Shown: positions 3,506 to 60,507 of the stretch, piece by piece | How the letters are laid out: the number at the start of each line of letters is the position of its first letter | Position numbering within the stretch: the first letter of the stretch is position 1 | Source of the DNA: Desulfosudis oleivorans | Lineage (GTDB): Bacteria > Desulfobacterota > Desulfobacteria > Desulfobacterales > SURF-7 | Length of the DNA stretch: 64,000 bases | Direction of reading: 5' to 3' | NCBI GenBank assembly: GCA_020723325.1 | Contig: DYJD01000001.1 | Span: 62,001-126,000 of the forward strand | Position numbers and translations under genes: made by a program | Notes under the pieces: model-generated | Told to the model about the DNA's origin: nothing | The model's input: the letters and a program-made list of their open reading frames with translations, nothing else | Database searches by the model: none

Positions 3506-4099
3506 ATGAACCTTAAAAAGAAAAAACCGCACGGCCGTGAACAGGTGACCAGGGCTTTGATCGAAGCCGCGGCTGAACTGTTTTCCAAATACGGCTTGGA
3601 AGCGGTTTCAGTCCGGGATATCGCGGCCAAGGCAGGTGTAAACCATGGGTTGATTCACCGCCATTTTGGTTCAAAGGAAATTTTGCGCCGCAAAACCCAA
3701 GAATTCCTTGCCGCCGGCATTCGTGAAGGGGTCGGCATACCAACGGATTTTGAAGACGCCCTGCTGAAGGCTTTTGATACCCTGGAGAAAAAACCGGCAT
3801 TTTGGCGGGTGCTGGCGCGGACGTTTTTGGACGGAGAAGACCATGGTGATGTGCAAAGCGATTTTCCCTTTCTAAAATATCTAGTGGAGCTGGCCCGGCA
3901 GGGACAGGCGGAACGGAAAATCACAACCGCCTATGAGCCGCGTTTTCTCGTTGCCGCGGTGGTGGCCTTCGGGCTCGGTATGATGGTTTTCGAACGTTTC
4001 ATCCTGCCCGGCACGGGTTTGGAAAAAGAGCCCAGGGAAGACATTCAGCAGAAAATGAACGCTGCCTTGTCGACCTTTCTGAAAGGCCCGGCAGCATGA
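3506..4099 (+). CDS. TetR/AcrR-family transcriptional regulator
   Basis: A 197-residue TetR-type repressor. The N-terminal helix-turn-helix is clear: ALIEAAAELFSKYGLEAVSV followed by the recognition-helix region AKAGVNHGLIHRHFGSKE. The C-terminal ligand-binding and dimerisation part (about residues 70-197) resembles no specific subgroup I recognise. Its stop overlaps the start of der in an ATGA, so the two are probably translationally coupled. That is unusual, because der is a housekeeping ribosome assembly gene. The ligand and target operator are unknown. Confidence 0.88.
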   Translation: MNLKKKKPHGREQVTRALIEAAAELFSKYGLEAVSVRDIAAKAGVNHGLIHRHFGSKEILRRKTQEFLAAGIREGVGIPTDFEDALLKAFDTLEKKPAFWRVLARTFLDGEDHGDVQSDFPFLKYLVELARQGQAERKITTAYEPRFLVAAVVAFGLGMMVFERFILPGTGLEKEPREDIQQKMNAALSTFLKGPAA

Positions 4100-5460
4100 G
4101 TCCGATTGTCGCCATCGTTGGTCGGCCGAATGTGGGCAAATCCACGCTGTTCAACCGCATTACCCGTAAAAAGGACGCCCTGGTGGATGATCTGCCGGGT
4201 GTCACCCGTGACCGTCATTATGGTGAAGCGGTTTGGAACGATGCGGCCTTTACCCTGGTGGATACCGGCGGTTTTACCGAAGACGACCGGGATGATTTTG
4301 CCGACAAGATCCGGTTTCAAGTGCGCTTGGCCATTGAGGACGCGGATGCCATCATCCTGGTCCTGGACGGCAAAGGCGGTCTTTCACCTTTTGATACGGA
4401 AATCATCGCCCTTCTGCGGGCTGTGGAGTTGCCGGTTTTTTATGTGGTCAATAAAATCGACAGTGCGGAAAAGGAAATCAATTTGTTTGATTTCTATAAT
4501 CTCGGAATTGAACAGCTTTATTCCCTTTCGGCTGAACATGGGTATGGGGTGCCGGGTTTTCTGGATGATCTGGCGGCAGTGCTGCCGGTTGCAGAGCAAA
4601 CTGAGATGGATGAATCCGTCAATGTGGCAGTGGTGGGGCGGCCCAATGTGGGCAAGTCCTCCTTGATCAATCGAATCCTGGGTGAAGAAAGATTGGTGGT
4701 GAGCGATATCCCCGGCACTACCCGGGATGCCATCGACACCATCTGCCGCATCAATGCAAAAACCTATCGTCTGATCGATACCGCCGGCATCAGGCGCAAA
4801 GGTCGCGTTTCCGAACGAATCGAAAAATTTTCCATACTCAAGGCCCTTAAGAGCCTGGATCGCTGCCATGTGGCCCTGATCGTACTGGATGCCGAGGAAG
4901 GCGTTACCGACCAGGACATCCGGGTGGCCGGGTACGCCTACGAGCGCGGTTGCGGCTGCGTTTTTGTTCTGAACAAATGGGATCGCATTGAAAAGGACAA
5001 TCGTACGGTCAAGCGTTTTACCGAAGAGATTCGGATGAACGCCAAGTTTTTAAGTTTTGCGCCCATCATCACCGTTTCCGCCCTCACCGGTTTTCGGGTT
5101 CCGAAGATTTTTGAATTGATCGATAAGGTTTTTCAGCAATATTGCCTGCGGGTGGAAACCGGCCCCTTGAATAAAATACTCGAACAAGCCCTGGCCAGAA
5201 CAGAGCCGGCCTTGCATAAGGGCAAACGCTTGAAATTTTATTATGCGGCCCAGGTGGGTGTCAAACCGCCTGCCTTTGTTTTTTTTGTGAATTATCCGGA
5301 AGCCGTGCATTTTTCCTACCGTCGTTATTTGATCAATCAGATCCGGGAAGCCACCGGTTTGAACGACACCCCCATCCGGGTGCTTTTCCGGCTCCGCACC
5401 GGGCGCATTGAATTCGGCAATAAAAAGAAAGAAGACCGGGGAAAGCGGAAAAAAAAGTAA
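4096..5460 (+). CDS. der: Ribosome biogenesis GTPase Der (EngA)
   Basis: A 454-residue tandem GTPase needed for maturation of the 50S ribosomal subunit. Two complete G domains are visible: the first P-loop GRPNVGKST near residue 8 with DTGGF and NKID, the second GRPNVGKSS near residue 181 with DTAGI and NKWD. They are followed by the KH-like C-terminal domain and a lysine-rich tail. Length is typical of the family. The start overlaps the stop of the upstream TetR gene (ATGA). The TAA stop falls in the outermost unit of the inverted repeat at 5457-5587, so the repeat begins in the last bases of the gene. Confidence 0.97.
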   Translation: MSPIVAIVGRPNVGKSTLFNRITRKKDALVDDLPGVTRDRHYGEAVWNDAAFTLVDTGGFTEDDRDDFADKIRFQVRLAIEDADAIILVLDGKGGLSPFDTEIIALLRAVELPVFYVVNKIDSAEKEINLFDFYNLGIEQLYSLSAEHGYGVPGFLDDLAAVLPVAEQTEMDESVNVAVVGRPNVGKSSLINRILGEERLVVSDIPGTTRDAIDTICRINAKTYRLIDTAGIRRKGRVSERIEKFSILKALKSLDRCHVALIVLDAEEGVTDQDIRVAGYAYERGCGCVFVLNKWDRIEKDNRTVKRFTEEIRMNAKFLSFAPIITVSALTGFRVPKIFELIDKVFQQYCLRVETGPLNKILEQALARTEPALHKGKRLKFYYAAQVGVKPPAFVFFVNYPEAVHFSYRRYLINQIREATGLNDTPIRVLFRLRTGRIEFGNKKKEDRGKRKKK

Positions 5461-5587
5461 CTAAAGTTTTAAGTGACTAAAGTGACTAAAGTTAAGGACT
5501 TTGTATCCATTTTTTAGATTTTGATGGAGCAAAGCGACTCCTCAACTTTAGTCACTTTATACTTTAGTCACTTATAACTTCTTTAAG
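5457..5587. repeat. Inverted repeat A: hairpin with arms of GTGACTAAA-type units
   Basis: The left arm (5457-5494) is made of repeats of AGTGACTAAAGT. The right arm (5543-5587) is the imperfect reverse complement (ACTTTAGTCACTTT units). The centre (5495-5542) contains TTAAGGACT and a small inner hairpin GGAG...CTCC. The arms could form a stem of about 35 base pairs with a few bulges. It fills nearly the whole der-rarA gap, covers the der stop codon and ends just before the rarA ribosome binding site. The TTAAGGACT at the centre also occurs at the centre of repeat B, though the arm sequences differ. Confidence 0.85.
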
Positions 5588-5615
5588 TTGGTTTCTGGTA
5601 ATCGGGAAGGATATT

Positions 5616-6962
5616 TTGGATCTCTTTGAATATCAGGCAGAGCAGGCCTTATCTTCAACCCAGCCATTGGCGGAGCGGATGCGTCCGCGCAATCTCAATG
5701 AATTCGTAGGGCAGCCGAAGATTGCCGGTCCAGGCGGTCTGATCCGGGGCGCCATTGAAAAGGATCGGATTTTTTCCATGATTTTATGGGGGCCGCCGGG
5801 TTGTGGAAAAACCACCTTGGCCGCCATCATTGCCAAGGAAACCCGTGCCCATTTTGTCCAGATCTCGGCAGTATTGTCCGGCGTAAAACAGATCCGGGAA
5901 GTAATTGAAGAGGCCAATAGACAGAAGCGCATGCATCAGAAAAGGACCATTCTATTCGTGGATGAAATCCACCGTTTCAACAAATCCCAGCAGGACGCCT
6001 TTTTGCAGCATGTGGAAAGCGGGCTCATCACCCTGATCGGCGCCACCACGGAAAATCCTTCCTTTGAAGTGATCCCGGCGCTTTTGTCCCGCTGCCGGGT
6101 GATCGTACTCACGCCTTTGGATCATGACCAAATCAGAACAATACTGGAATGCGCGGTAAGTGACCAGGAGCGCGGTCTGGGGCGGTTGAAACTGGCCTTT
6201 GATCCCAATACCCTGGATCATCTGACCGCCATTGCCGATGGGGATGTGCGTACAGCCCTGAACGGGCTTGAGATTGCCGTGAATCTGGCCGCGCAACAGG
6301 ATGAGGGGGGGCGGCTGCGAATTCGGCTTGCGGATGTGGAAAAGGCCTTGCAGCAAAAGGCCCTGCGCTATGATAAAAACGGCGAAGAGCATTACAATAT
6401 CATTTCGGCCTTGCACAAAAGCATGCGCGGCAGTGATCCGGATGCGGCGGTTTATTGGCTGATGCGCATGCTGGCCGCCGGCGAAGATCCCCTCTATGTC
6501 GCCCGCCGTATGGTGCGCTTTGCTTCCGAGGACATCGGCAATGCCGATCCCTATGCCCTGCAGGTGGCCCTTTCCGCTGTGGAGGCCTTTCGTTTTTTGG
6601 GGCATCCAGAGGGTGAACTGGCCTTGGTCCAGGCTGCGGCCTATCTGGCCACGGCGCCCAAGAGCAACAGCCTCTATCTCATGCAACAGCAGGTGGCAAA
6701 GACCATTCAAACCACCGGTGCCCTGGCTGTGCCCCTGCATATACGCAACGCTCCCACCCGCATGATGAAGGAATTGGGCTACGGAAGGGATTACAAATAC
6801 GCCCATGATTATGAGCAAGCCTTTGTCCCCCAGAGCTATCTGCCCCAGGAACTGGAAGGAACTCTTTTCTATAACCCCACGGACCGGGGTTATGAACAAA
6901 CCGTCAAGCAGCGGCTGGATAAGTGGCGGGCCATGCGAGAGGCAAATAAGAATAAAAGCTGA
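5616..6962 (+). CDS. rarA: Replication-associated recombination protein A (RarA/MgsA), AAA+ ATPase
   Basis: A 448-residue AAA+ ATPase of the clamp-loader-like RarA/MgsA/WRNIP1 family, which acts at stalled replication forks. Visible motifs: [16 protein letters not shown] at the N-terminus, Walker [10 protein letters not shown] (about residue 57), Walker B/sensor region [18 protein letters not shown], and [12 protein letters not shown]. The C-terminal MgsA tetramerisation region has the usual [11 protein letters not shown] and YKYAHDYE motifs. The start is TTG at 5616, supported by GGGAAGG five bases upstream; no ATG lies nearby in frame. The gene sits between repeats A and B. Confidence 0.96.
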
Positions 6963-6966
6963 ACGC

Positions 6967-7178
6967 TTTTTTCCTGCTCGTGCTCCTGCTCTTGCTCATA
7001 ATCGTAATCGTAATCGTAATCGTGCTCGTAATCGATTTTTTAAGGACTCCGCAATTTTTTTCGATTACGATTACGATTACGATTACCGCTGCGCTGAGCA
7101 CGAGCACGAGCACGAGCACGAGCAGGAGCAGGAGCAGGAGCAGGAGTAGGAGTAGGAGTAGGAGGGAGCACGAATAAA
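6967..7178. repeat. Inverted repeat B: long hairpin of ATTACG and GAGCAC/GAGCAG hexamers
   Basis: The left arm (6967-7034) begins with a T-run and CTGCTCGTGCTCC, passes into tandem TAATCG hexamers and ends at the loop. The right arm (7061-7178) is the mirror image: about four ATTACG hexamers, then GAGCAC, GAGCAG and GAGTAG hexamers, then a final GAGCACGAA. The loop (about 7035-7060) carries TTAAGGACTCCGCAATTTTT. Arms differ in copy number, so hexamer expansion has occurred. It is the left flank of the four-helix-bundle gene and shares ends and loop with repeats C and D. Confidence 0.92.
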
Positions 7179-7208
7179 GCCATAACGCACAGAAACAGGA
7201 TTGATCAT

Positions 7209-7610
7209 GTGATGTTCGACCATGAGCGTTTGCATGTTTACCAGGCAAGCCTGGAATTTGTCGCATGGGTTTATGATCGAGTCTTGAATTTAAAAGGGCA
7301 TTTTCATCACGCTCGGGATGAATTGCTGCGCGCGGCCCAATCCATTCCCCGCAATATTGCCGAAGGGAACGGAAAGCGTTCCCTGCCGGACCGCAGACGT
7401 TTTTTTGAAATTGCGCGCGGATCGGCGCTTGAGTGCGCGGCGGTATTGGATGAATTGCGTGTGATGAGAGCGTTTGAGGCTTCCGAGATAGTGGAAGGAA
7501 AAACGCTGCTGCGCCGGATTATGGGGATGCTGACAAAGATGACGGAACCGTTTGACGGGGTTCGGGAGGAGATTGCGGAATGCGGCTTCAACAGAGAGGA
7601 AAATTCGTAG
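7209..7610 (+). CDS. Four-helix-bundle protein (S23/IVS-encoded protein-like)
   Basis: A protein of about 133 residues of the four-helix-bundle family that includes the proteins encoded in 23S rRNA intervening sequences (S23) and is structurally related to the accessory protein Avd of diversity-generating retroelements. Recognisable features are the N-terminal DHERLHVYQASLEFV, the core LLRAAQSIPRNIAEGNGK and the all-helical C-terminus with EIARGSALECAAVLDEL. The GTG at 7209 is directly followed by ATG at 7212; CAGGA lies about eight bases upstream. No rRNA gene is nearby, so this copy is free-standing. It is bracketed by the related hairpin repeats B and C in the same orientation. The biochemical role of free-standing copies is not known; the basic character suggests nucleic acid binding (inference). 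Confidence 0.88.
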   Translation: MMFDHERLHVYQASLEFVAWVYDRVLNLKGHFHHARDELLRAAQSIPRNIAEGNGKRSLPDRRRFFEIARGSALECAAVLDELRVMRAFEASEIVEGKTLLRRIMGMLTKMTEPFDGVREEIAECGFNREENS

Positions 7611-7638
7611 CAAATGAGAGGGGCTTGATCCCCCGAGG

Positions 7639-7767
7639 TTTTTTCGTGCTCAGCGTAGCGGTGCTCCTGCTCTTGCTCGTAATCGTAATCGATTTTTTTA
7701 GGCCCTCCTCAATTTTTCTCGATTACGATTACCGTTACGCTGAGCCGGAAAAGGAGCACGAAAGAAA
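7639..7767. repeat. Inverted repeat C: shorter copy of the repeat B family
   Basis: The left arm starts TTTTTTCGTGCTCAGCG, then GCTC-rich units and two TAATCG hexamers. The loop (about 7693-7718) contains TTTAGGCCCTCCTCAATTTTT. The right arm reads CGATTACGATTACCG, CGCTGAGC and ends GGAGCACGAAAG. It has the same orientation, ends and loop core as repeats B and D but fewer hexamers. It lies about 30 bases downstream of the four-helix-bundle gene and about 25 bases upstream of the vapBC promoter. Confidence 0.9.
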
Positions 7768-7789
7768 ATGGGCTGAAACCAAATCCCGG

Positions 7790-7839
7790 TTGACTTCTCC
7801 TTAAAGTATTACTATTATATAATATAAGTAATACTTTAA
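7790..7839 (+). promoter_or_regulatory. vapBC promoter with overlapping operator palindrome
   Basis: A TTGACT (7790-7795) and TATTAT (7813-7818) pair with 17-base spacing fits a vegetative promoter. Over the -10 lies a perfect 13-base inverted repeat, TTAAAGTATTACT (7801-7813) and AGTAATACTTTAA (7827-7839), separated by 13 A/T bases. This is the expected layout for autorepression of a toxin-antitoxin operon by the VapB-VapC complex. The ribosome binding site AGGAGA follows just before the vapB ATG. Confidence 0.75.
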
Positions 7840-7851
7840 CCAGGAGAAGAT

Positions 7852-8103
7852 ATGAAAACATACTCCATTACCCCCAAAGGCCAGGTAACAATTCCGATTT
7901 CAATCCGGGAGGCCTTGAATATAAAACCAGGGGATAAAATTTTTTATGAAGAAACCATTCATGGGGTGGTCATCAAACCAGTGAAGCAAAATATGATCAA
8001 TGATTATGGATTTTTAAAAGACCATCCAAAAACAACAAACGATATTGAAACCATCCGCAATGAAGCGCGATTAAGAATCGCCAACCGAAGGCAGCCATCG
8101 TGA
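7852..8103 (+). CDS. vapB: AbrB/MazE-family antitoxin (VapB)
   Basis: An 83-residue antitoxin. The N-terminal swapped-hairpin AbrB DNA-binding domain is obvious in SITPKGQVTIPISIREALNI and KPGDKIFYEE. The C-terminal part, roughly residues 45-83, is the probable toxin-binding tail. A strong AGGAGA precedes the ATG. The stop overlaps the GTG start of vapC (GTGA), so the two are translationally coupled. It should neutralise VapC and, with it, bind the 13-base palindrome upstream. Confidence 0.93.
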   Translation: MKTYSITPKGQVTIPISIREALNIKPGDKIFYEETIHGVVIKPVKQNMINDYGFLKDHPKTTNDIETIRNEARLRIANRRQPS

Positions 8104-8531
8104 GAAAGGTATTTTTTGACACCAATTTTTTGCTTCGTTTTTACTTGGCGGATGTGCCTTCCCAGGCCGAGAAAGCAAGACAGATGGTTGAAGCGGCAGT
8201 CGACGGACAATTGTTGCTGATCACCGACCTTATCGTCATTTGTGAGATGGTCTGGGTAATGGATTCTTTCTATAATGTTGAAAAAGAACTAATTATCGAA
8301 AAGATAACCAATCTTTACGAAACGCCCGGAATTTCTATTCTAAACGGCAGTATTCTTCCCCAAGCCCTTTCGATATACCAAAATTCAAAAATTGATTTCA
8401 CTGACGCCGTTATTGCCGCAAGCGCAATTAAAAATAGAGTGGGTTTTGTTGCATCGTTTGATAAAAAACATATGAAAAGGTTGATCGATCTCGGAATCAA
8501 GCGTATTGAAAGTATAGATGAAATCGGCTGA
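8100..8531 (+). CDS. vapC: PIN-domain ribonuclease toxin (VapC)
   Basis: A 143-residue PIN-domain protein expected to cut RNA using a divalent metal. The acidic residues are in place: FFDTNFLLRF with Asp7, the Glu in ICEMVW (about 48), the Asp in FTDAVIAA (about 101) and the Asp in ASFDKKH (about 120). It starts with GTG inside the vapB stop. Full length with no missing catalytic residue, so it is probably functional. The target RNA is unknown. The pair sits between hairpin repeats C and D. Confidence 0.92.
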   Translation: MRKVFFDTNFLLRFYLADVPSQAEKARQMVEAAVDGQLLLITDLIVICEMVWVMDSFYNVEKELIIEKITNLYETPGISILNGSILPQALSIYQNSKIDFTDAVIAASAIKNRVGFVASFDKKHMKRLIDLGIKRIESIDEIG

Positions 8532-8601
8532 ATCCTCGCGGAAAGCGAATTGGGGAATCGACGCATGTGACCCATTATGAGAGAGCGCCTATCCTTCGAT
8601 G

Positions 8602-8756
8602 TTTTTTCTTGCTCGTGCTCAGCGCAGCGGTGCTCGTAATCGTACTCGTAATCGGTTTTCGAGGGATCCACAATTTTTTTCGATTACGATTACCGCTTCG
8701 CTGAGCACAAGCACGAGCACGAGCAGGATAAGGAACACGAGCAGGAGCACGAAAAG
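8602..8756. repeat. Inverted repeat D: third copy of the repeat B family
   Basis: The left arm starts TTTTTTCTTGCTCGTGCTC, then AGCGCAGCGG and GTAATCGTACTCG units. The loop (about 8655-8678) carries GAGGGATCCACAATTTTT. The right arm reads CGATTACGATTACCGC, CGCTGAGCAC, GAGCAC and GAGCAG units and ends GGAGCACGAAAAG. Same orientation as B and C. It occupies most of the 369-base gap between vapC and the aldolase gene; the rest of that gap holds the aldolase promoter. Confidence 0.9.
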
Positions 8757-8772
8757 ATAGTGGAAAATGATA

Positions 8773-8800
8773 TTGACAGAACATCCGATTATATTACAAT
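8773..8800 (+). promoter_or_regulatory. Probable sigma-70 promoter for the aldolase gene
   Basis: TTGACA at 8773-8778 and TACAAT at 8795-8800 with a 16-base spacer give a near-consensus vegetative promoter about 100 bases upstream of the aldolase ATG. It starts only 16 bases after repeat D ends. Confidence 0.7.
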
Positions 8801-8900
8801 CCATGCTGTCCCACAGGCCTGGGGAGCGAGTGCGAGTCTGCCTTATTATTAATCAAAATTATTAATCAAATTATCAACGGAGTTACGAGGAGGTGAATTC

Positions 8901-10196
8901 ATGTCTGGGAAAAACGCGGTGAGTGCCTCGGATTTTACCAAAGCCCTTGAAATCGGACGACCACCCAATGTGCGCAAATTGTTCCCCCATTCCAAAGCCT
9001 TGATCGTCAGCGGAAAATTCATTGACCGGGCCATGCTGGCCAAGGGCAAGGCCATGACCATGGCAGCCAACGGCCGGAGCCATTTCGTCATCCGCGGGGC
9101 GCTTCTGGCGGCCCAACGCGCCAATGCCGCCATCATCATTGAAATTGCCCGTTCCGAGGGCGGCGCCGGGGCCTATTGCGCCGTGAATTTTTGGAACATC
9201 GCCCGCCAGGTGGATGCACTTTGCAATGAACTGAATATTACCGTTCCGGTGGCCATTCATGCGGATCATTACGGTATTAAAAAGGCAGCGGAACTGGCCA
9301 AGGCCAAAATCGAAATTCCCACCCTGTTTGAAGCCGGCATCACCTCCATCGCCATCGACGCTTCCCACATGCCCGATGACCAGAATCTGCTGGCAAACAT
9401 TGAATTGAATCCCTTTGTTCCGGCCTGGGCCGGTCTTGAAACTGAAAGTGGCGAAATTAAAGGCAAGCTGGGCTTGTCCACCGCTGCTGAAGCCAAATTT
9501 TTGATTCAGGGCCTGAATGCCCACGGCATCTTTCCGGACTGGATCGCCTTGAACAACGGCACTACCCATGGGATCGAGGCCAGCGACCAGGGAATCCAGG
9601 TGGGTCTTACTGCTGAGATTCATGATGCCCTGGCCAAATACAATGTATCCGGAGCCCAGCACGGCACCTCGGGCAACAATTCGGATCGGTTGCGAGAAAT
9701 CGTGGCCAAAACCCGCACCACCAAGGCCAACGTGGCCACGGCCCTGCAGATGATTTCCTGGGGCCTGGAAGTGAATGATTACGGCAATGCCTTCATGGAT
9801 TCCGCGGGCAATTTCGTCAAGGTCAAGGATCAAGGAGTGACCGAGGAAATGTGGGCGGAAATGCTGGCCTATGCCGCCGACAAAAAGCTCAAGGCCGGAG
9901 ATTTTAAGAAATTGAATTTGCCCTTTGAAAACAAATTACTGGGTCAGGCCCGGGAAGTGCGGGAGCGCATGGTGAAACGGGTGGAGGATTTTTCCTATAA
10001 TCTGCTGGTCAATGTTTTCAATGCCGCGGACACTGCGCCACTGGCGGTTGAAGCCATTCTCAAGGCCGGTTCCCATGATGCCGGCCCCAAGGCCCAGCGC
10101 ATTGAATCGCCCCAGGATTGGACCCCGGCCAGGATTTCTGAAAAAGCCGCGGCTCTTACCAGCGAGAAAGGGCCGTCAGGCAATTTCGACGATTAG
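8901..10196 (+). CDS. fba: Class II fructose-bisphosphate aldolase family protein
   Basis: A 431-residue class II (metal-dependent) aldolase family protein, expected to cleave fructose 1,6-bisphosphate to triose phosphates in glycolysis and run in reverse in gluconeogenesis. The zinc-site motif AIHADHYG, the segment AGITSIAIDASHMPDDQN, the glycine-rich IALNNGTTHG and VSGAQHGTSGNN are the expected class II elements. It is longer than the roughly 310-360 residues of common class II enzymes, with extra C-terminal sequence from about residue 330. A strong GAGGAGGT precedes the ATG. The Nudix gene follows after two bases, so they form one transcript. Exact substrate is inferred from the family. 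Confidence 0.85.
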   Translation: MSGKNAVSASDFTKALEIGRPPNVRKLFPHSKALIVSGKFIDRAMLAKGKAMTMAANGRSHFVIRGALLAAQRANAAIIIEIARSEGGAGAYCAVNFWNIARQVDALCNELNITVPVAIHADHYGIKKAAELAKAKIEIPTLFEAGITSIAIDASHMPDDQNLLANIELNPFVPAWAGLETESGEIKGKLGLSTAAEAKFLIQGLNAHGIFPDWIALNNGTTHGIEASDQGIQVGLTAEIHDALAKYNVSGAQHGTSGNNSDRLREIVAKTRTTKANVATALQMISWGLEVNDYGNAFMDSAGNFVKVKDQGVTEEMWAEMLAYAADKKLKAGDFKKLNLPFENKLLGQAREVRERMVKRVEDFSYNLLVNVFNAADTAPLAVEAILKAGSHDAGPKAQRIESPQDWTPARISEKAAALTSEKGPSGNFDD

Positions 10197-17582: not shown

Positions 17583-17735
17583 ATCTTGCTCTTGCTCTTA
17601 ATCGAAAAATCTTAATCGACAACCATGGTGAAAGAGTAGGAAAAATTATGGTAATCTAATGAGATTAATAAGTAAGATAAAGAGTTAAGAGTAAGAGCAG
17701 GAGCAGGAGTAAGAGCAAGAGCAAGAGTAAGAAAA
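17583..17735. repeat. Inverted repeat E: AAGAGC/AGGAGC hexamer arms
   Basis: The left arm (17583-17604) is ATCTTGCTCTTGCTCTTAATCG. The right arm (about 17680-17735) is a longer tandem of AAGAGC, AGGAGC and AAGAGT hexamers containing its reverse complement. The A/T-rich centre (17605-17679) has no visible match to the loop of B-D. The architecture is the same as repeats B-D and the units are close relatives (GAGCAG/GAGCAC), but the ATTACG part is reduced. The right arm ends just before the pdxJ ribosome binding site. Confidence 0.75.
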
Positions 17736-58254: not shown

Positions 58255-60417
58255 ATGCGCAAACACCAGGCCAATGATAGTCGACAAGGCGCTTATCTGG
58301 CCGTAATTGTATTGGTGATTACGGCGATGGGTTGCGGGGATGAAGCCCGCATCAAACCGGATCCTTCCTTTCAGAAATGGCAGGTAAAGGCGGAAACTTC
58401 AAAAGGGACTTCACCGGTGAGCAAAAAGCATGCGGTTGCTTTTTCCGACCGGAGAGAATCAACCACGGCAGAGGGTGAAATGTCGCTGCCGTTGACGCGA
58501 CCGCTCCCGACTCAACCCATTACCATGTCCTTGAAGGATACCCAGGTAAGCACGGTGCTGCGCGCTTTAGCCCGGGCGGTTGATTTGAATATCCTGGTCA
58601 ATGAGAAAGTCGCGGCCAAGACCACCATAAACGTTAAGGAGGCCCGCTGGGATGAGCTGTTTACCGCCCTGCTGCGCTCCAATGGGCTGACCTATGCCTG
58701 GGAGGGAAATCTTCTACGGGTCATGACCTTGGAGGATATGGAGCATGAATTGAAGCGCACTTCCCAGGACAGGGATTTGCGCCTGGCCAAGCCTTTGAAG
58801 ACCAACATTATCCCCATTCACTACGCCGATGAACAAAAGCTGAAGGGCAGTCTTGAAAAATTCCTCTCCATTGGCAAAGACGGTAAAAGCATCGGGTCCA
58901 TCATGGTGGACGAACATACCCGGGCCCTGATCATCCAGGCCGTCGAAGATGATATGGAGCAGTTGATGGGGTTGATCGACCAGTTGGATCATCCCATCCC
59001 CCAGGTGCTGATTGAGGCCAATATTATCGAGGCCGGCCGTGAAGTGGCGCGGGAGCTGGGCATTCAATGGGGCGGGCTGGCGGTTCATAAAGGGACGGTG
59101 AACCACTATGTAACCGCCGGAGCCAAGAGCAGCGGTGTAACCGGCGGCACGCTGAATGACCCCATCAAGCCGACTTCAGGCATGGCGGTAAATTTCCCTG
59201 CGGCGCTTTCAGGGGGAACCGGCATGAGCATCGGGTATGTGGCGGAAAATGTGGGCGGAAATATCTTGACGGTGCAGCTATCGGCCTTGCAGAAGGAGGG
59301 CAAATTGAATATCTTGTCCAGTCCTTCCATTACCAGCATCGATAATCAAATCGCCGTCATCGAAGCCGGAACCAATGTGCCTTTTCAGACTGTTTCCAAA
59401 GAAGGCAATATCAACATCGAGTGGAAGGAAGCCGTGCTCAAGCTGGAGGTCAAGCCCAATGTGATTGATGAGAGCACGGTGAAACTGCTGATTAAAACCA
59501 ACAAGGATGAGCTGGATTTTTCAAACAGTGTGGCTGGAAATCCGACCATCATTACCAAAAAAGCGGAAACCAGCGTGGTCCTGATGGACGGGCAGACCAC
59601 TGTCATCGGTGGTTTGAACAAACAGACCAATCAGAATACAGACACGGGTGTACCGTGGCTGCAGAATATCCCCCTGTTGGGATACCTTTTCAGGGGACAG
59701 GGCTCTGCGGATAAAATGGAAGATATCCTCATCTTTATCACTCCGCATATTTTAAAAGAACAGGCGGCGCGGGAACCGGCCGAACCAGGCGCAAGCTTGA
59801 CTCCTGCTGAAAAAACGGATTTGCCCAAAGTCAAAGATGCTGAACAGCCGGCAGAGCCGCCGGCCCATCCCCCGCAAGCCGGGCTGCCTGAGAGCCCATC
59901 TTTCACTTCCTTTGCTTCCCGACCGTCTGAGCCGCCGGCGATCATCGGCCGGATTGCGGTTGGATCAGGACAAACCCTGTGGGAGATGATGCAGATGGTA
60001 TATGGGGATTATCAGCCCGCTCACTTGCAGACACTGCTGCGCTACAATCCGCATATCCGGACGCCGGAGCGCCTGCAGATCGGTCAAATGATCAATTTTC
60101 CGGCCATACCGGCTATGGCTCGCAGCGGAGCAGCGGCCCGCAGTTGGATCAAGATCGCCCATTTTGGAACCCTGGCCGAGGCCCTGCAATATCTGCAAAG
60201 GTATTCACCTGCTGATCCACCCGTGCGCTTATTGCCCTATTGGAATGAGTCAGAGGGGCCGGGCTTTGAAATATTGCTGCAGGATCATTTTCCAGATGCC
60301 GAAGCAGCCCAGGCTGAAATCGAGCGCCTGCCGCCGGAGCTGTCTGCCCAGGCCCTGGTGAAATCCGGCTGGGGGGCGGGGACGCTTTTTTATGCCGACC
60401 CGTATAAAAGCAATTAG
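58255..60417 (+). CDS. MshL/PilQ-type secretin lipoprotein with a C-terminal LysM- and SPOR-like module
   Basis: A 720-residue outer-membrane secretin. The signal peptide has lipobox VITAMGC (Cys about 27). An STN domain (about 88-160, ITMSLKDTQVSTVLRALARA), an NolW/N1 domain (about 180-250) and the secretin pore domain (about 255-500; LNILSSPSITSIDNQIAVIE, VVLMDGQTTVIGGL, VPWLQNIPLLGYLFRGQ) follow in order. After a Pro-rich linker, residues about 565-620 are LysM/FimV-like (GQTLWEMMQMVYGDYQPAH; GQMINFPAIP) and 625-720 SPOR-like, ending LFYADPY. That tail is shared with the ATPase at 60508. The TAG stop lies in repeat F. Confidence 0.9.
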   Translation: MRKHQANDSRQGAYLAVIVLVITAMGCGDEARIKPDPSFQKWQVKAETSKGTSPVSKKHAVAFSDRRESTTAEGEMSLPLTRPLPTQPITMSLKDTQVSTVLRALARAVDLNILVNEKVAAKTTINVKEARWDELFTALLRSNGLTYAWEGNLLRVMTLEDMEHELKRTSQDRDLRLAKPLKTNIIPIHYADEQKLKGSLEKFLSIGKDGKSIGSIMVDEHTRALIIQAVEDDMEQLMGLIDQLDHPIPQVLIEANIIEAGREVARELGIQWGGLAVHKGTVNHYVTAGAKSSGVTGGTLNDPIKPTSGMAVNFPAALSGGTGMSIGYVAENVGGNILTVQLSALQKEGKLNILSSPSITSIDNQIAVIEAGTNVPFQTVSKEGNINIEWKEAVLKLEVKPNVIDESTVKLLIKTNKDELDFSNSVAGNPTIITKKAETSVVLMDGQTTVIGGLNKQTNQNTDTGVPWLQNIPLLGYLFRGQGSADKMEDILIFITPHILKEQAAREPAEPGASLTPAEKTDLPKVKDAEQPAEPPAHPPQAGLPESPSFTSFASRPSEPPAIIGRIAVGSGQTLWEMMQMVYGDYQPAHLQTLLRYNPHIRTPERLQIGQMINFPAIPAMARSGAAARSWIKIAHFGTLAEALQYLQRYSPADPPVRLLPYWNESEGPGFEILLQDHFPDAEAAQAEIERLPPELSAQALVKSGWGAGTLFYADPYKSN

Positions 60418-60492
60418 GAATTAGGAATTATGAATTATGAATCAAGGTATTCTATCAGTAATTCCTAATTCGTAATTCCTAATTCATAATTG
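60412..60492. repeat. Inverted repeat F: AATTAGG/AATTATG unit hairpin
   Basis: The left arm (60412-60442) is tandem AATTAGG and AATTATG heptamers. The right arm (60459-60492) is the reverse complement type (AATTCCT, AATTCGT, AATTCAT). The loop of about 16 bases contains AAGGTATTCTATCAG. The left arm covers the secretin stop codon, and the right arm ends just before the ribosome binding site of the next gene, the same placement as repeat A. Confidence 0.85.
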
Positions 60493-60507
60493 TTTTTAAG
60501 GAGGGTT

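Follow-up and report, generated by a model that had tools for sequence, protein, structure and literature searches.

S23 protein genes inside inverted short-repeat arrays: probable members of an intervening-sequence-type family of palindromic insertions that extends beyond rRNA

Introduction

The closest described counterparts of the element reported here are the intervening sequences (IVSs) of 23S rRNA genes. In the Coxiella IVS, heptameric GACAGAT repeats precede an open reading frame (ORF) for an S23 protein, which lies in the loop of a stem; the IVS sits in helix 45 and is excised by RNase III. Mobility of IVSs is an older proposal, and how the IVSs of rRNA originated is said to be unclear (PMC4990558). 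The present element occupies 1.9 kb of a 64-kb stretch of Desulfosudis oleivorans DNA (the whole stretch analysed, hereafter the window) and combines an S23 gene with hairpins whose arms are tandem arrays of short units. It probably represents a widespread IVS-type palindromic insertion that also occurs outside rRNA and is coupled to its S23 protein. A hairpin with an S23 gene in its loop and heptamer arms, as in Coxiella and in an Azospirillum lipoferum plasmid (locus L249), is the common plan. The present element differs in lying between protein genes, in its unit length, in its long and variable arms and in having many copies without a gene. It would work like an IVS outside rRNA, and is neither an IVS by location, nor a RAYT system, nor a diversity-generating retroelement (DGR).

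Structures of the S23 family have been solved (2gsc, from Xanthomonas campestris, and 2rld), and its function is not known; to our knowledge, S23 is a helical bundle without known catalytic site. Unexplained heptamer arrays and inverted pairs have been described without reference to it. GGGAATC repeats occur in Xanthomonas and Nostoc, with 70 and 75 inverted heptamer pairs in two Xanthomonas genomes (PMC4692102, available part), and TAACTGA repeats in Beggiatoaceae, cyanobacteria and some Bacteroidetes (PMC4679880, available part); reversed, the latter read TCAGTTA, which fits the consensus of S23 arms given below. The main texts of both papers make no mention of S23. S23 genes do appear in a survey of genes linked to clustered regularly interspaced short palindromic repeats (CRISPR), as far as that text is available (PMC10910872). 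Among the best-ranked open-access PMC papers (15-30 per search), none was found to connect S23 genes at sites other than rRNA with short tandem arrays in inverted orientation.

Results and Discussion

The window locus and its S23 protein

The insert lies between a rarA/mgsA-like gene and a gene which we take to be of aldolase type, and comprises the following features.

6967..7178, + strand: hairpin 1, with a T-run, a left arm of TCGTGC/TCGTAA-type hexamers, the loop TTTTTTAAGGACTCCGCAATTTTTTT and a right arm of CGATTA/GAGCAC/GAGCAG hexamers
7209..7610, + strand: S23 (four-helix-bundle) gene, 133 aa, by PF05635, TIGR02436 and predicted structure
7639..7767, + strand: hairpin 2, of the family and orientation of hairpin 1, with fewer arm units
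7852..8103, + strand: MazE/AbrB-like antitoxin gene (PF04014, E 3.6e-11), cargo between hairpins 2 and 3
8100..8531, + strand: PIN-domain gene (PF01850, E 1e-10), cargo between hairpins 2 and 3
8602..8756, + strand: hairpin 3, of the family and orientation of hairpin 1
6963..8900, no strand: whole insert, 1.9 kb, between the rarA stop (6962) and the aldolase-type start (8901)
5616..6962, + strand: rarA/mgsA-like gene, left neighbour (MgsA_C, E 9e-69)
8901..10196, + strand: aldolase-type gene, right neighbour, with matches in 29 of the 30 genomes searched (the window's own among them)

Three related intergenic hairpins in one orientation around a four-helix-bundle gene had been proposed from the letters of the window (the original prediction), and both parts of this proposal held. 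A core of loop plus right arm, CAATTTTTNTCGATTACGAT, has three mismatch-free copies in the 64 kb against 0.03 expected (100 shuffles); arms and loops of the three hairpins can be aligned to each other, and a window array scan detected period-6 arrays in hairpins 1 and 3. Predicted RNA folding energies are -104.0 (hairpin 1, 6963-7178), -50.1 (hairpin 2) and -61.2 kcal/mol (hairpin 3), with z values of -11.1, -5.5 and -4.9 against 100 mononucleotide shuffles each. Since arm units vary in number, the hairpin boundaries are approximate. The MazE-like/PIN pair (7852-8531) is bracketed by hairpins 2 and 3; the window's genome contains 35 PIN matches at E <= 1e-6. No match over the gathering score was obtained in an Rfam scan of the window, and its S23 element lies outside 23S rRNA.

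The protein encoded between hairpins 1 and 2 matches PF05635 with 68.7 bits (cut-off 33.8, E 5.9e-19) and TIGR02436 ('four helix bundle protein') with 63.1 bits (cut-off 24). Its predicted structure has a mean predicted local distance difference test (pLDDT) value of 90.1 and template modeling (TM) scores of 0.90 on both 2gsc_E and 2rld_B. The predicted kinship in fold with Avd, the DGR protein, was also borne out by a weaker match to 4dwl_D (TM 0.85 on target, 9% identity, Foldseek E 0.013), and the fold is common to Avd in DGR ribonucleoprotein structures too. The likeness to DGRs ends with this four-helix bundle: the window protein has no match to the Avd sequence model at E 0.001, the S23 profile gave none with Avd chains by sequence, and the genome contains 0 RVT_1 matches.

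Inverted short-unit arrays flank S23 genes in many phyla

PF05635 is present in 106 of 198 sampled genomes of the window's phylum (E <= 1e-6). Flanks were analysed at 127 S23 loci: 7 from the window's own genome, 30 from its phylum (best-scoring, one per genome), 80 named loci spread over many phyla (the best of 588 candidates), 2 of the window clade described below and 8 plasmid loci picked by the analyst among 29 plasmid records that matched S23 at E <= 1e-8. Under one rule, a clear unit of 6-9 nt was found at 103 of the 127 (7 nt at 87, 8 nt at 10, 6 nt at 4 and 9 nt at 2), against 2/30 PIN-domain loci from the same phylum, 2/59 displaced positions and 5/240 random positions. By set, clear arrays occurred at 7/7 own, 19/30 phylum, 67/80 named, 2/2 window-clade and 8/8 plasmid loci.

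Arrays on the two sides are often reverse complements of each other, which places the S23 gene in the loop of a hairpin. Within 500-bp flanks (period 5-15), at least one flank of 21/30 phylum loci and both flanks of 12/30 contained an array, compared with 3/30 and 0/30 for PIN loci. Inverted flank scores of at least 20 were reached by 13/30 phylum loci and 5/10 S23 matches of the window's genome, against 0/30 PIN loci and 1/119 cross-paired S23 flanks. Among 79 named loci (L207, with too short a flank, was left out of the scoring), 66 had an array in either flank and 30 in both, with inverted scores of at least 16 in 53 and at least 20 in 32; displaced positions in 70 named loci gave 12, 0, 0 and 0, respectively. 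The link between S23 genes and inverted short-unit arrays is therefore strong and general, and the association with four-helix-bundle genes expected by the original prediction for copies elsewhere extends to S23 loci in many phyla. Terminators or simple slippage repeats were rejected as explanations, given that they leave the S23 link and the empty sites reported below unexplained.

Ten PF05635 matches at E <= 0.001 occur in the window's genome (G000; 7.2 Mb, 113 contigs), eight of them above the cut-off. Seven of the ten genes (L001-L007) have a clear short-unit flank array, the unit being different for each; the flank array scan detected an array on one side of L008 and of L009 and none at L010.

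Units of S23 arms also recur across the respective genomes. AGTTCTC is the common unit of L168, L170 and L165, and in their genomes three consecutive units with up to two mismatches gave 225, 88 and 60 matches (overlapping ones included). Three genomes whose S23 loci have other units gave 1, 0 and 0, and controls gave 0. The AGTTCTC matches listed for genome G276 form eight facing pairs: six at distances of 45-106 bp, one at 198 bp and one at 532 bp; the last distance is the size of an S23 insert, judged by spacing alone. At L168, an Rfam Acido-Lenti-1 RNA (3846-3891, - strand) lies about 1.5 kb downstream of the S23 gene, which has very long arms. When 400 kb of sequence was pooled from each of two groups (11 S23-bearing genomes and 9 S23-less ones), periods of 7, 8, 14 or 16 accounted for 34/110 and 6/110 arrays, respectively (Fisher 1e-6), and arrays with an inverted partner for 4/110 and 0/110; in 400 kb of the window's genome the latter were 16/96.

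S23 elements within rRNA and at gene junctions

The statement that S23-family proteins occur in 23S IVSs is exemplified by L249, the only one among 20 S23 sources scanned to match large-subunit (LSU) rRNA (2526.7 bits). Its S23 gene lies inside the LSU rRNA gene, between heptamer arms of the GACGGAG/GACAGAG type.

All eight plasmid loci have flanking arrays, seven with 7-nt and one with 8-nt units, and their sites are intergenic (cmr2|S23|cmr3, nrdB|S23|nrdA, cas6|S23|cas4, iron-sulfur assembly gene|S23|sufB and others). The cyanobacterial plasmid inserts contain no annotated gene besides S23. Comparison with relatives revealed that S23 plus arms is present or absent as a discrete insert at gene junctions. 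Picosynechococcus PCC 7003 has S23 between cmr2 and cmr3, where PCC 7002 (92% identity) has a gap of 12 bp, and nrdB|nrdA is without S23 in Calothrix NIES-4105 (86%). One operon of Nostoc plasmids (89-95% identity) contains S23 at one junction in L246 and in none of the 7 other copies shown; at a second junction S23 occurs in L254, L256 and L259 and is missing from L246, L255, L257, L258 and L260. Since L254 and L256 have one protein accession, the three filled copies need not be independent. At this second junction L261 has a different ORF of 60 aa without evident arrays (490-790).

At the window's own site, rarA and the aldolase gene are joined by 3 bp in L100 (genome G198, same family, rarA 65% identical); rarA stands beside the aldolase gene in 1 of 19 relatives' loci (L086-L105 read, L086 being the window's own). 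The empty sites that the original prediction looked for in relatives thus exist at several junctions, that of the window itself in one relative only.

These sites bear on whether S23 homes into the loops of pre-existing repeat hairpins born by slippage, much as IVSs sit in rRNA helices. A solo array with another unit is found at cas6|cas4 of Pseudanabaena ABRG5-3, where a relative has S23 plus arms. However, the empty sites in PCC 7002, at the Nostoc junctions and in G198 have no array, and unit length is clustered on the S23 tree (see below), making this explanation improbable.

The S23 gene reads in the direction of its neighbours in L245, L246, L248 and L250, and against them in L243, L244 and L247. 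By simple ORF calling on the named loci with both neighbours (17/80 were too short), the neighbours are co-directional in 39/63, with S23 sense in 32 of these and antisense in 7. S23 genes were also observed within cas operons of three cyanobacterial plasmids (L245, L248, L262), which may be an ordinary reason for the CRISPR association reported in the available part of PMC10910872.

Unit length follows the S23 protein

On a tree of 127 S23 proteins, 103 of them labelled with a unit length (those of L228 and L038, which contain N runs, set by hand to 7), unit length changes 10 times, against 14-16 times in 300 shuffles; shared taxonomy may add to this clustering. The window protein forms one clade (SH-aLRT 100) with L005, L241 and L242, the only 6-nt clade on the tree. 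L241 and L242 are distant relatives recovered by a profile search that, at E <= 1e-20, hit 3 of 247 genomes including the window's own. TCG recurs in the 6-nt arms of all four loci, and the layout of L242 resembles that of the window in having the gene between complete hairpins. Bracketing by complete hairpins, as originally described, applies to these two loci; elsewhere the gene is often inside the loop and units are mostly of 7 nt.

Eighty heptamer arms, read on the S23 strand, share the phase TYAG(T/G)NN with a likelihood of 189.5 (best of 40 starts); none of 30 sets with shuffled units exceeded 166.1 (10 starts for each set, best one taken). AGT is contained in 29/80 of the heptamer units and ACT in 4/80. 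Such S23/repeat pairs allow unit length to be matched to protein clade.

Gene-less hairpins and candidate partner enzymes

Hairpins sharing the unit of an S23 locus without containing the gene are abundant in the window's genome. The arm pattern of L005, whose flanks consist of GGGGTC/GGTATC-type hexamers, has 354 matches at up to 3 mismatches against 1 in the control; one hairpin can yield two pattern matches, so the hairpins are fewer than 354. The window arm pattern has 25 matches (control 0), three of which come from window hairpins 1 and 3. One S23 gene was found for each of these two units, and S23 genes are far outnumbered by gene-less hairpins in this genome. One gene-less hairpin with the L005 unit adjoins L005 itself, whose neighbours are presumably an efflux fusion protein and an outer-membrane efflux protein.

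These numbers fit the analogy with RAYT transposases and repetitive extragenic palindromic (REP/REPIN) sequences drawn in the original prediction, where one protein gene is likewise flanked by hairpins with many gene-less copies in the genome. The analogy does not extend to the components: RAYT is a Y1 HUH nuclease, whereas the gene flanked by the window hairpins is S23 (the five Y1_Tnp matches of this genome lie elsewhere) and the arms are tandem short units. A RAYT-type Y1 transposase could still move the hairpins as single-stranded DNA, or serve as a partner of the S23 protein. Y1_Tnp was found in 19/22 S23-bearing and 7/20 S23-less genomes, a correlation that may reflect mobile-element load only, and was not found in 3 of the 22, two of which have 11 and 8 S23 matches; movement by such an enzyme is considered highly improbable.

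Spread through RNA, with S23 acting like Avd as partner of a reverse transcriptase that copies hairpin RNA, would agree with the common fold, the strong RNA folding and the sense bias, and the S23 proteins of L035 and L249, among those scanned, match the Avd model weakly, below the cut-off. But RVT_1 was found in 13 of the 22 S23-bearing genomes and not in the other 9 (among them the window's own and one with 15 S23 matches), and the sequences of the window protein and of the S23 profile do not match Avd, leaving this the faintest of the possibilities considered here. With RVT_1 and Y1_Tnp each not found in some S23-bearing genomes, neither seems to be required. A trans-acting enzyme of another kind, for which no search was made, is possible.

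An IVS-type insertion coupled to its S23 protein

Taken together, the flank arrays, the discrete filled and empty sites and the clustering of unit length are best accounted for by a palindromic insertion of which the window element is probably one member. In a typical member the S23 gene would occupy the loop of a hairpin, and inverted tandem arrays of a short unit, usually of 7 nt but of 6, 8 or 9 nt in some lineages of S23, would form the arms. Hairpins that share a member's unit but not the gene would be a reduced form, more numerous where counted, and the IVSs of 23S rRNA would be members that landed in rRNA. The S23 element presumably moves as a unit. Transcripts through it may fold and then be cleaved by RNase III, a process published for the Coxiella IVS, and this could make insertions inside operons tolerable; RNase III is also reported to act on Correia elements in the available part of PMC2649163. 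The S23 protein would bind the nucleic acid of arms or hairpins that have its own type of unit, and would be needed for spread or upkeep. In the window variant the S23 gene stands between two complete hexamer hairpins, and a third hairpin would let the stretch carry the MazE/PIN pair.

Several observations weigh against this interpretation. No movement of an S23 element was observed, and the layout of the window differs from the simple gene-in-loop form. Its empty site comes from one relative only, so that insertion and deletion cannot be told apart there. Of the 127 loci, 24 were without a clear array, and the count took in 7 of the 10 S23 matches of the window's genome, L008-L010 being outside it; nor are all loci independent, since L003 and L004 share flanks, L033 and L038 are near-identical and some named loci come from related species. 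Array density per genome gave no clear difference between the 11 S23-bearing and the 9 S23-less genomes (p = 0.079). The S23 tree is weakly resolved (16/124 inner branches starred), and therefore clustering, not history, was tested on it. Antisense S23 genes in L243, L244 and L247 are not explained by RNA-level processing of the S23 message. In Coxiella the S23 ORF is decaying and its product is probably not synthesized in vivo, which argues against a present role there, and heptamers in Xanthomonas are generally unassociated with insertion sequences or transposons, according to the available parts of PMC4990558 and PMC4692102, respectively. Finally, many gene-less hairpins of the window's genome, some of them at contig ends, are enclosed by longer imperfect outer inverted ends like those of miniature inverted-repeat transposable elements (MITEs), and no target-site duplication of 2-9 bp was found for copies in this genome with the ends as assumed.

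As an alternative, a conventional transposase acting on these outer ends might move the hairpins as ordinary MITEs, with S23 and MazE/PIN as passengers caught between copies. MITEs, including Correia elements, are similarly short, multicopy and intergenic with inverted ends. One outer end, AGGGGAATTGCATGTAGNTTTTT, has 66 matches in the genome (control 0), both hexamer families occur within such longer elements, and TAA stands on both sides of L138, L143, L149 and L157 (by eye, without statistic). End models were found on both sides at 8/54 GGGGTC and 7/23 GAGCAC seed places, some of them weak. By contrast, the ends differ between the hexamer families and are absent from the window hairpins, which moreover accompany an S23 gene and have tandem-unit arms. 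One long stretch between facing ends, enclosing a gene that is presumably peptidase-like, showed no transposase, with no search made for a matching one; it may be two unrelated elements, its left end belonging to a short self-complete element. The S23-array link, furthermore, holds in other phyla with other units, and S23 alone is annotated in the cyanobacterial inserts. Ordinary MITEs are thus an unlikely explanation of the whole, and an ordinary transposase stays the main rival for the gene-less copies, given their MITE-like organisation in this genome.

MITE-like sequences were also seen at contig breaks: contigs of the window's genome end inside one element with the end CAGGGCAATCGCATGTAGTTTTTT at L333-L335, L343, L344, L348 and L349, and a high-copy MITE-like family with this end seems to break the assembly. 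L355 (200-820) contains two back-to-back elements, one with a GGGCGGTTCGCGAACCGCCC palindrome and AATTAAC-type repeats, the other with GGGGTC arms.

Returning to an IVS-type insertion coupled to S23, a bolder version can be put forward tentatively: S23 could be the trans-acting factor of distinct mobile palindromes whose arms grow and are copied in unit-length steps set by the protein. Its products might then be the rRNA IVSs as well as those heptamer arrays and inverted pairs that still lack an explanation in cyanobacteria, Xanthomonas, Beggiatoaceae and Acidobacteria. S23 elements are a candidate source for such arrays, and a general S23-plus-repeat-hairpin element makes S23 function and IVS origin testable questions.

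Further repeats in the window

A degenerate member of the hexamer family of the window hairpins lies apart from the insert; neither it nor the other arrays below figured in the original prediction.

17585..17732 (about), + strand: degenerate hairpin with GCTCTT/AAGAGC-type units

Inverted arrays of a 9-nt unit (AAGTGACTA / TAGTCACTT) occur 5' of rarA at 5455-5590, to the right of a gene presumed to encode a Der/EngA-type GTPase, and form a hairpin of like build with another unit. Intergenic inverted heptamer arrays, AATTAGG / CCTAATT, are found at 60410-60493; their unit is of the type present around the S23 gene L002.

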